Program-made: the position numbers and the translations under genes
In this document: one piece after another, positions 25,501 to 27,839 of the stretch
Numbering within the stretch: position 1 is the stretch's first letter
Layout of the letters: every line of letters begins with the position of its first letter
The notes under the pieces: model-generated
Databases searched by the model: none
Seen by the model: only the letters and a program-made list of their open reading frames with translations
What the model was told of the DNA's origin: nothing
Source: Hypomesus transpacificus
Lineage: Eukaryota; Chordata; Actinopteri; Osmeriformes; Osmeridae
NCBI RefSeq assembly: GCF_021917145.1
Contig: NC_061071.1
Coordinates: 3,065,953-3,129,952, forward strand
DNA: 64,000 nucleotides
Direction: 5' to 3'

Positions 25501-27839
25501 TTGTGGGTAATGGGGAAAACAGCAGTCTTTTCTTCCATATTACATTGCTTTTACAAACTGAAGAGCTCAAACATCAATAATGTGTCCAGATTAAGTAAAC
25601 TGAAGAAGTTCTGAAAGTGACATTATGTATAAATTGTAACCATGACTGGGAACATTATGTCATTTTATAAGAAGTTTCGTCCCGGTGAAAATCCAACTTT
25701 CCTTGTCATGGGGTGGTATTGGACACTCAATGAACGTGTAGTGAGAGTGTCCATGCTAACACCATATCAACACATACGCATCACCTGAATCTCGTATTTG
25801 GGCTATGGTGCAATTTTTGGAAACCCTTAAATACATGGGTAAAATCATGTAAATGGAAATTAACATCACTGCCACCTACAGGTTTGATAATATACAACTA
25901 CTGAGTCTTATTCTAAGCATTATGCAGTAAAGGCTTCTGATGGCTACAGAATGTCTGGATACTGACAGTCAAGTTGGTTCATCACAGAGAAATAAATGAC
26001 AGCCAAGTCACGTAATTACTGTTATTGACAACATTCAGTTGTTTCACACTCACTACAACTTTGCAGCAAGCAACCTGCATGTTCGTCCCACCTCTCACTA
26101 TTAGACACACAAAAACACAAATGTAGCCTAAATCACACACACACATACTCCCAGACCTGGTTGGCTGCCAACAGCTCTGAGGGGTGGGGTAAGGGAGCCT
26201 ACTGCAGTGCCCCCCCTCCCCATTTCCTCTCACAGGCCTGCAGTGTTTCACTGGACCTGCCTCATCACCAAGCCCTTGGCTGGCTGGCTGCAGCAACAGC
26301 TCTCAACAACAGATCTGTCCTCTTATCCTCCACTCTCCTCGGTCCCCCCTCGTCATGACTGACACTTGAAATGGACCCGCTGGGGATGGCAGCTACCTAC
26401 CTAACATTGTCTGTAGCATCACAGACACCCCAGTCTAAGCTTCAAACTGTACTTTGAATCATAAGCATATTTGATCCTGGCTTTCTGCTTATTGTGTGTG
26501 TGTGTGTGTGTGTGTGTGTGTGTGTGTGTGTGTGTGTGTGTGTGTGTGTGTGTGTGTGTGTGTGTGTGTGTGTGTGTGTGTTTGTGTGTGTGTGTGTGTG
26601 TGTGTGTGTGTGTGTGTGCGTGTGTGTGTGTAAGATAGCAGGTTGAGATGAACATAAATGTGTCTTGTCTGGGGTACTGACACTAATACAAAAAAAAAAA
26701 AACTCCCCACTAATTGTCATGGGAGGTTTGTCCCCATTACATTTTACAGTAATCGTTCTGATTGGAGAAGGCTACGTTTCCAGGGCAGCGGGTAGTGCAG
26801 CACTCGGATTGGCTGTGAGAGGTGAGCTGTTGGGTGTTAAATGAAGGGTAGTGAAGATTGGTTGGTTTCTACAACCGTGATACACGGTCATTACCAGTGT
26901 CCTCGGAGCTCACACCCTCTTGTGCATTTATTTTTCTGTATGCAAGATTTAGATACCACATCACATCGTATTCAACTAATTTGATTTCATGGGGCAGTAT
27001 ATCAAGCATATTTTTCCCCTGCAGTAACCTGCATGCACATTAAGTAGGCTACCGCTGGAACATATTCATTCCTTAACTCATCTGCTTCTACCTCTAAGGC
27101 AAGCCCCTATCAACAATATAATAAGCATACTTGCATACTATACATCATCCATGATTGGTCAATTAGTGCAAGGATCTACACAGTAGTAGCGTGGCACATG
27201 CATTAACAAGATTTCACAAAAGTCCAGAACAGTTTGTACCCTCAGGTCTATTATAAGCTTATCCCATGGTTTTTACATCAACTCAACTGTTACAATACAG
27301 ACTAGTGAGCTGGGGGTGAAGGGCTTAAAGGGAGAATAGTCAGTGAGTTGACTTGATATATAACCTGGTGTAGATATATAATGTGTTATACCCTGGTGGG
27401 AGTCAGGGTCATGTATCTCAATATAGCAGAGTGCACACAGGGGTCCAACTTAAGGGTTTAGAAACCACCTCAGTCTCTGTACATTCAAAGATCCATGCTA
27501 CTACTGGGCATAAAAACTGATTGCCAACTGTCAAGTATCATTTACACATCTTTATCAAAATAATTAACTAACTATCAGCTAAAAGACACAAACACAAAAG
27601 AGGTGTGTCCAGTATTATTCCTTGGAATATTTTCCTTTACTCACCTTGAAATTGCTAGAGTTGACCCATCCAGTAGCCACGCCATCCACCGTTTTGTCAA
27701 GCATAGTCTGGTCCTCTTCCAAGTCCTCTGACTTCTCTGGGTCAAGAATGTAGTCAATGAGCTCCTGGCCTACCTGTAGCCTCCGGCCCAAGTCCTTTTG
27801 CATCACCTGCTCCATGCAGTACTCCATGTTCAGCTCCAT
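4563..27839 (-). CDS. clasp1: CLIP-associating protein 1 (microtubule plus-end TOG protein)
   Basis: CLASPs bind microtubule plus ends, promote rescue, and act at kinetochores, the Golgi and the cell cortex. Exons, 5' to 3': 27839-27645, 25321-25243, 25085-24982, 24865-24774, 24657-24582, 24104-24007, 23732-23662, 18940-18804, 18691-18609, 18393-18301, 18141-17996, 17897-17762, 17528-17457, 17303-17244, 16743-16666, 16517-16350, 15788-15742, 15560-15381, 14045-13950, 13826-13665, 13419-13315, 11472-11375, 11122-11099, 10668-10424, 10165-10102, 9786-9623, 9462-9240, 8329-8192, 8019-7913, 7554-7438, 6899-6752, 6645-6414, 6030-5837, 5650-5522, 5391-5185, 4971-4855, 4649-4563. They sum to 4,572 nt, or 1,523 residues, near the usual CLASP1 length. 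Order: TOG1 (about 1-238), TOG2 (about 312-560), a Ser/Arg-rich region with EB1-binding SxIP motifs (SRIP near 726), TOG3 (about 800-1078) and the C-terminal CLIP/cargo-binding domain (about 1280-1523). The N-terminal [14 protein letters not shown], the [10 protein letters not shown] exon and the Ser-rich C-terminus fit CLASP1 better than CLASP2. Further alternative exons or promoters may exist. Confidence 0.93.
10683..10763. repeat. 18-bp minisatellite, about 4.5 copies
   Basis: Four near-perfect tandem copies of an 18-bp GC-rich unit (GGACAGGAGGGTCACTGA) plus a partial copy. The array lies in the clasp1 intron immediately upstream of the TOG3 exon at 10,668. Confidence 0.95.
11099..11122 (-). 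other. clasp1: 24-nt in-frame clasp1 microexon
   Basis: Between the exons ending ...ADAL and starting RRPVRRRF, the minus strand reads CAG, then 24 nt encoding LLGDSRNK, then GTAGAT. The phase is 0 on both sides, so inclusion adds eight residues without a frame change. Mammalian CLASP proteins have LLGDIRTKKK at the same place, which supports a real exon. Its size suggests alternative inclusion, but that is inferred. Confidence 0.8.
11911..12832. repeat. 37/38-bp minisatellite, about 24 copies
   Basis: Tandem units containing CCCACATCCCTCCCAGCTAA followed by CAGCCCTCCTCTC. They occur in two lengths that differ by one C (CTCCAAG versus CTCCCAAG), and copies are otherwise almost identical. The 0.9-kb array fills half of the clasp1 intron between 11,472 and 13,315. 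The plus strand is strongly pyrimidine-rich. Confidence 0.97.
13436..13501. repeat. GGGA-rich tandem repeat
   Basis: Tandem GGGA units with two interspersed GACGAA blocks. It lies just upstream, in the transcript sense, of the clasp1 exon beginning at 13,419, so on the transcribed strand it is a CCCT-rich pyrimidine tract next to a splice acceptor. Confidence 0.85.
14640..14835 (-). repeat. degraded fish interspersed repeat
   Basis: The segment containing GGTTTCATCC, TTTCCTTGTCTTCC and an end of the form TTGCAAAAAGGGCC...AATCTGATCTGATTTGAT resembles the 3' part of a dispersed repeat common in teleost introns. Family assignment is from memory and the strand is uncertain. Confidence 0.45.
15902..16021. 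repeat. 15-bp minisatellite, 8 copies
   Basis: Eight nearly perfect copies of GGGACAGCCTGAGGA in the clasp1 intron between exons 16,517-16,350 and 15,788-15,742. The unit is a multiple of three and open in several frames, so it produces spurious reading frames. Confidence 0.97.
18402..18505. repeat. GA/CT microsatellite before a clasp1 exon
   Basis: Interrupted GAGA/CAGA repeat. In transcript sense it is a CU-rich tract ending a few bases before the GCTCAG acceptor of the exon starting at 18,393, and so probably supplies its polypyrimidine tract. Confidence 0.85.
18941..23661 (-). other. large clasp1 intron, no gene seen
   Basis: This 4.7-kb intron separates the TOG1 exons from the rest. 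It contains AC repeats (about 19,411-19,466 and 19,851-19,874), a GA repeat (22,347-22,388) and GC-rich patches near 20,880-20,935. Mammalian CLASP genes use alternative internal promoters giving forms without TOG1; a fish equivalent would lie here, but I found no first exon that I can defend. Confidence 0.6.
25488..25516 (+). promoter_or_regulatory. distal sequence element of the U4atac gene (ZNF143-like and octamer-like sites)
   Basis: About 180-207 bp upstream of the snRNA start. The minus strand reads TTACCCACAATCC, close to the ZNF143/Staf consensus YWCCCAYAATGC, and it is directly followed by TTTGCAAA, resembling the POU octamer. Distance and site types are those of vertebrate snRNA enhancers. 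Confidence 0.6.
25634..25653 (+). promoter_or_regulatory. candidate proximal sequence element of the U4atac gene
   Basis: TTGTAACCATGACTGGGAAC lies at about -61 to -42 relative to the snRNA start, where vertebrate snRNA genes carry the SNAPc-bound PSE (loosely TCACC..., then A/G-rich). There is no TATA box right after it, as expected for a Pol II snRNA gene. Confidence 0.5.
25695..25826 (+). ncRNA. rnu4atac: U4atac small nuclear RNA (minor spliceosome)
   Basis: U4atac pairs with U6atac in the U4atac/U6atac.U5 tri-snRNP needed to splice U12-type introns. The first 19 nt differ from the human 5' end, as I recall it, at only four positions. CTTTCCTTGTCA can pair over most of its length with the U6atac stem II strand. 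A perfect 8-bp hairpin (GGACACTC at 25,721-25,728, GAGTGTCC at 25,745-25,752) encloses a kink-turn (AATGA...GTGA), the 15.5K site. TGCTAAC (25,754-25,760) is the stem I strand. GCATCACC...GGTGC can form the 3' stem, followed by the Sm site AATTTTTGG (25,812-25,820). The 5' hairpin sequence differs from human while remaining paired, which suggests selection. It lies antisense in the first coding intron of clasp1; I recall that human RNU4ATAC also lies inside CLASP1. Exact ends are estimated to within a few nt. Confidence 0.9.
26494..26631. repeat. long TG/CA microsatellite
   Basis: About 138 bp of nearly pure TG repeat (single interruptions at about 26,581 and 26,619) in the first coding intron of clasp1, about 0.7 kb downstream of the U4atac gene. 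Confidence 0.97.

Follow-up and report, generated by a model that had tools for sequence, protein, structure and literature searches.

Does intron 1 of clasp1 in this fish contain a working gene for the minor-spliceosomal RNA U4atac, and is it the only such gene in the genome? The original prediction put a U4atac snRNA gene at 25695..25826 of the window (the whole 64,000-nt stretch of DNA analyzed here), and such a gene is indeed encoded there. Scanning with the Rfam covariance models gave a clear, full-length match to the U4atac family RF00618 at 25696-25824 on the forward strand (cmscan, 98.8 bits, E 6.1e-16, model positions 1-132 of 132) against a gathering score of 53 bits, and this was the sole match above gathering score in the 64-kb window. 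We set +1 at A 25695, by analogy with the AACC... start of the human RNA; the predicted start is therefore kept, while the end moves to 25824, where the RF00618 match stops. Judging from its sequence, we hold it about 90% probable that this gene, hereafter copy A, is a functional U4atac snRNA gene and one of two that were kept after duplication of a block containing clasp1.

For comparison we used what we take to be the human U4atac sequence, and likewise an assumed human U6atac sequence. The parts of copy A are as follows:

25695..25824, forward strand: U4atac snRNA gene, copy A (RF00618 match 25696-25824)
25697..25713, forward strand: stem II strand, pairing with U6atac (duplexfold with the assumed human U6atac)
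25721..25752, forward strand: 5' stem-loop with kink-turn (AATGA / GTGA) and an 8-bp perfect helix (sequence, fold, and compensatory changes relative to copy B and human)
25754..25760, forward strand: stem I strand TGCTAAC (the same in both fish copies and the assumed human RNA)
25778..25811, forward strand: 3' stem-loop of 34 nt (six lower pairs kept in copies A and B)
25812..25820, forward strand: Sm site AATTTTTGG (sequence; identical in both copies, the assumed human RNA, and the Rfam consensus)

The 5' end had been described as a 19-nt stretch resembling human U4atac, and 15 of the 19 letters at 25695-25713 equal those of the assumed human sequence. The perfectly paired hairpin around a kink-turn is also present: its two strands, GGACACTC and GAGTGTCC (25721-25728/25745-25752), form all eight pairs and enclose AATGA...GTGA. 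The stem I strand and the Sm site were found in the predicted order, with AATTTTTGG coming right after the 34-nt 3' stem-loop, as is required for U4atac. This stem-loop, which was missing from the original prediction together with the promoter elements and the second genomic copy, completes the order of elements expected for the family. The stretch 25695-25824 is an ordinary member of the known U4atac family in its known host gene, of which the relevant parts are:

27645..27839, reverse strand: clasp1 coding exon 1 (protein match at C12:3093591-3093791)
25322..27644, reverse strand: clasp1 intron 1, host of copy A (GTGAGT and AG at its two ends, the pattern of an ordinary major-type intron)
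25243..25321, reverse strand: clasp1 coding exon 2 (protein match; ends set by eye)

Exon mapping bears out the proposed nesting, with copy A (forward strand) lying antisense within intron 1 of clasp1 (reverse strand). The exon-1 peptide scored 100.1 bits against human CLASP1 (6mq5) versus 60 bits against CLASP2 (5nr4). No U12-type intron was found in the window by a strict motif scan. Elsewhere in the window, clasp1 is adjoined by a pde9a-like gene (29600-33300, forward strand; best solved relative PDE9A), followed by a voltage-gated chloride channel gene (about 34800-37600, reverse strand), of which the exon at 36135-36770 matched PF00654 and the wider span was judged from open frames. A DDE transposase element occupies 52800-53800, with PF13358 in 53120-53569.

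The window copy is not alone. A search for the U4atac family in the assembly from which the window comes (437 Mb, 376 contigs) returned copy A and a second match, copy B, at C23:8031119-8031246 (93.6 bits); weaker copies could have escaped, because scoring covered the best 49 of 11,601 first-look candidates. The original prediction had asked for a better-scoring copy elsewhere, and had held that a second intact locus combined with a silent window copy would speak against it. A second intact locus does exist, but copy A, at 98.8 bits, is the better-scoring of the two and no sign of its being silent was seen. The host of copy B was recognized by two exons:

C23:8043806-8044006: second clasp1 exon 1 (protein match)
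near C23:8030665-8030763: second clasp1 exon 2 (protein match)

Copy B lies antisense between these two exons. The exon-1 peptide of the second gene again scored higher against human CLASP1 (101.9 bits) than against CLASP2 (50.1 bits), and the protein search of the assembly that located these exons met the two clasp1 genes alone and, with the query used, no clasp2 (6/6 candidates). Both clasp1 genes adjoin a pde9a-like gene, the one on C23 being a paralogue of that in the window, and the clasp1 and pde9a-like exons are collinear between the window and C23 on either side of the middle of clasp1, a further comparison covering the surroundings of U4atac. The clasp1 span on C23 also encloses two DDE transposase copies, one near-identical at the protein level to the element in the window (8.0148-8.0163 Mb) and one more diverged and on the opposite strand (8.0163-8.0167 Mb). 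Haplotype duplication was considered as the origin of copy B and rejected, as the two loci are on different contigs and are 22% diverged.

Exon-1 identity is 49/66 between the two fish genes, 48/66 between the window gene and human, and 49/66 between the C23 gene and human; since the two fish genes are about as dissimilar to one another as either is to human, the clasp1 duplication appears to be old. The clasp1/pde9a-like regions form a paralogous block that probably dates from the teleost genome duplication. An intact U4atac in intron 1 of both clasp1 genes would show that the nesting is older than the duplication of clasp1. Human CLASP1 hosts one U4atac gene of this kind, in a matching intron and on the matching strand. 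The claim that the nesting is ancient is borne out by the same intron and orientation in two paralogues, and by human RNU4ATAC, a member of the same RNA family, which overlaps CLASP1 according to the available text of PMC13400782, just as the fish copies lie in clasp1.

Have both copies been maintained as RNA genes? They are identical at 102 of 131 aligned columns and differ at 29, and from the assumed human sequence copy A differs at 46 of 130 aligned letters and copy B at 42. All three RNAs agree in the stem I strand, the AATGA/GTGA letters of the kink-turn, and the Sm site. Twenty-two stem pairs were named, nine in the 5' stem-loop (present in the Rfam consensus structure) and 13 in the 3' stem-loop, of which copy A forms 22 and copy B 21. 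All nine named pairs of the 5' stem-loop are standard in both copies, likewise in human. Among the upper pairs of the 3' stem-loop, copy A forms 7/7 and copy B 6/7, and two are altered on both sides. In total, five stem pairs were altered on both sides between the copies and are still paired, and four were altered on one side, one of these being the upper 3'-stem pair lost in B. Folded as lone strands, copies A and B had z-scores of -2.04 and -2.84, respectively; these folds left the 5' stem-loop of copy B without its two inner pairs.

When the 5' sides of copy B were held fixed and an equal number of changes was placed randomly on the 3' sides, as many pairs survived in a fraction 1e-5 of 200,000 trials, and double changes were as numerous in 3e-5. 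This test leans towards copies A and B because the 3' pairs were named from their own folds; the comparison as a whole draws on two fish sequences of one genome and one assumed human sequence. That a hairpin which differs from human and yet stays paired argues for function, as had been proposed, is strengthened by these compensatory changes relative to copy B. Both copies look functional, and under the explanation that we prefer both have very probably stayed under selection.

The promoter regions were compared with those of other snRNA genes of the same genome, and two elements stand upstream of copy A:

25637..25650, position -58, forward strand: proximal sequence element (PSE) TAACCATGACTGGG (14.5 bits; matrix from the U4 and U11 genes of the same genome)
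25492..25510, position -203, reverse strand: distal element of ZNF143/STAF type, TTACCCACAATCCTTTGCA as read on the reverse strand (19 bp identical to copy B)

The PSE matrix, of 14 columns, combines the U11 word with seven distinct words of U4 genes, taken from the oriented upstreams of 20 of the at least 42 U4 loci and of the U11 locus; copies A and B were kept out, as was U12, in which two ACC starts compete and leave the PSE start ambiguous. Within 300 bp, the best place was at -58 for copy A (14.5 bits) and at -60 for copy B (12.5 bits), scores reached by 4 and 15, respectively, of 287,766 background positions, A and B themselves included. The distal element is an identical 19-bp word, TGCAAAGGATTGTGGGTAA, at -203 in copy A and -214 in copy B. 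It is the longest word common to both 500-bp upstreams (at most 13 in 200 shuffles), and when reversed it agrees at 17/18 letters with what we take to be the ZNF143/STAF consensus, a fit found at 4/287,694 background places, including those of A and B. Each of the seven distinct U4 upstreams, as well as U11 and U12, has a ZNF143-type site with 16-18/18 letters at -216 to -262, though on the strand opposite to that in copies A and B (9/9 upstreams compared).

The PSE and ZNF143-type elements of both copies thus resemble those of the U4 and U11 genes, and both copies have the layout of the Pol II snRNA gene class, with a PSE near -60 and a distal ZNF143 site near -200. Apart from these elements the two upstreams share little (MAFFT alignment). 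Downstream of either copy, no 3' box rose above background: the best matches to the consensus as we take it to be were 7/11 for A and 8/11 for B, and the commonest background score is 7. The major U4 genes of this genome are similar to U4atac in layout (PSE near -60, ZNF143-type site at -216 to -262), but they belong to another RNA family, have the distal site on the other strand, and number at least 42, many in tandem, as opposed to two. In human cells RNU4ATAC, a Pol II gene, is occupied by SNAPc, POU2F1, ZNF143, and GABP (PMC3499247, available text).

One match each was found for U11 (best 40 of 20,810 candidates scored) and U12 (best 44 of 19,507), and at least 42 for U4 (best 42 of 22,495); a large tandem U4 array occupies G000:C16:5150219-5180374, with many units at ~581-bp spacing. 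One each of U11, U12, U4atac, and U6atac is annotated in Nothobranchius furzeri (PMC5584509, Table 1). Since that annotation, in the available part of the source, lists a single U4atac, the two genes found here are a departure from it, the killifish copy being compared by annotation count alone. In the titles and abstract openings searched, with subscription journals mostly outside the search, we found no report of duplicated U4atac in fish, and the literature search found no paper treating U4atac together with clasp1a.

The pairing partner, U6atac, was sought in the same assembly in several ways. The Rfam family search gave none among the best 46 of 24,394 candidates scored, which shows no absence, because 14 control genomes likewise gave no match. 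A 28-nt pattern from the assumed human RNA had no occurrence with up to two mismatches, and a DNA search with the assumed human U6atac returned zero candidates. A 19-base core pattern (up to two mismatches) occurred at eight places, four of which (L014, L019, L020, L021) were scanned with Rfam, none of these four being U6atac, and the remaining four are overlapping repeat units on C9; a gapped pattern gave 11 places, none of them U6atac on Rfam scanning of 11/11, compared with seven for the reversed control. The core pattern search also brought up, by chance, a mir-202 precursor (L019 468-543, reverse strand, 98.9 bits). An assembly gap or the limits of the searches could explain why U6atac was missed though U4atac, U11, and U12 were found. 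With the assumed human U6atac, stem II is predicted to form 15 pairs in copy A (-24.1 kcal/mol), 15 in copy B (-23.1 kcal/mol, with an internal loop at positions 5-6), and 14 in human (-23.0 kcal/mol; all by duplexfold).

How else might two such loci be explained? One could suppose that copy A derives from U4atac but has fallen into disuse, with copy B alone serving the minor spliceosome. The single U4atac of N. furzeri suggests that one copy suffices in another fish (PMC5584509, available part), three 5'-stem pairs of copy A (28-55, 29-54, and 30-53) depart from human letters that copy B keeps, and the 3' box is at background level. We nevertheless consider this improbable: copy A outscores copy B with both the covariance model (98.8 versus 93.6 bits) and the PSE matrix, its 8-bp 5' helix is perfect, it forms 22/22 stem pairs, and its Sm site and distal element are intact. 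Helices held through paired changes for so long are, moreover, not what one expects of a gene that has died. Less probable still is an origin of the two loci in recent retroposition or gene conversion instead of the clasp1 block duplication. Nothing was found in its favor, and against it the loci share intron and orientation, have their own promoter elements at similar distances, lie among collinear flanking exons beside a collinear neighboring gene, and encode RNAs identical at 102/131 columns.

A tentative possibility, which would complement rather than replace retention of two functional genes, is that both copies work but have diverged in tissue, stage, or dosage through subfunctionalization of promoters and stem-loops. 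The scant likeness of the upstreams beyond the distal and proximal elements, the 29/131 differing columns, and the single matches for U11 and U12 are consistent with it; the identical stem I, kink-turn letters, and Sm site suggest instead that the RNAs may be interchangeable.

The differences between the copies also touch on positions at which human RNU4ATAC is mutated in disease. All 28 reference letters in the variant names in the available text of PMC7337319 agree with the human sequence used here. Disease positions are not enriched among letters common to human, A, and B: 15 of the 23 positions tested are shared, against 75/130 overall (hypergeometric p 0.29). The eight that differ are 29, 30, 51, 53, and 55 in the outer 5' helix, together with 5, 40, and 66, and those in the outer helix come in pairs. 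Human disease letters occur natively six times in the fish RNAs, namely n.29C, n.30A, n.51A, and n.53T in copy A and n.40T and n.51A in copy B. Those in the outer helix have a matching partner: in copy A, 29C faces G54, 30A faces U53, and 51A faces U32, and in copy B 51A likewise faces U32, whereas 40U faces G46 as a wobble, beside A39-U47.

The most frequent disease allele, n.51G>A, was found in 22/46 families (PMC7337319). The human 5' stem-loop has a predicted folding energy of -10.0 kcal/mol, which becomes -4.7 with 51A and -8.2 with 51A plus 32U. That n.51A is wild type in both copies alongside a matching partner is consistent with harm arising from disruption of the helix, as are the modeled energies; the word "compensatory" does not appear in the searched text of PMC7337319.

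We propose that RNA polymerase II would transcribe copy A, antisense to clasp1, from an snRNA promoter belonging to copy A itself, using a ZNF143-type distal element ~200 bp upstream and a SNAPc-type proximal element ~58 bp upstream. The RNA would pair with the fish's own U6atac via stems I and II, its kink-turn stem-loop would bind 15.5K and PRPF31, and Sm proteins would load at AAUUUUUGG, so that it may act as the chaperone snRNA of the U12-type tri-snRNP. Both genes would go back to a doubling of the clasp1 block, for which the teleost genome duplication is the most likely event, and both would have been retained since. We lean slightly towards a fuller version of this reading, in which two distinct U4atac RNAs, each under its own promoter, have run the minor spliceosome since that duplication, with n.51A as a wild-type letter of both, made harmless by U32.

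Beyond the known family, the analysis adds a second intact copy in a duplicated host gene, a promoter design that is shared, and disease letters that are compensated. Two intact loci in introns of duplicated clasp1 genes would show that an snRNA of this kind can persist as a duplicate and, if the reading is correct, the pair bears on how a spliceosomal RNA that is usually single-copy comes to be kept twice. The pair would also test, by an experiment of nature, whether the damage done by human n.51G>A comes solely from breaking the helix, and the compensated n.51A suggests a simple rescue test for the human allele.
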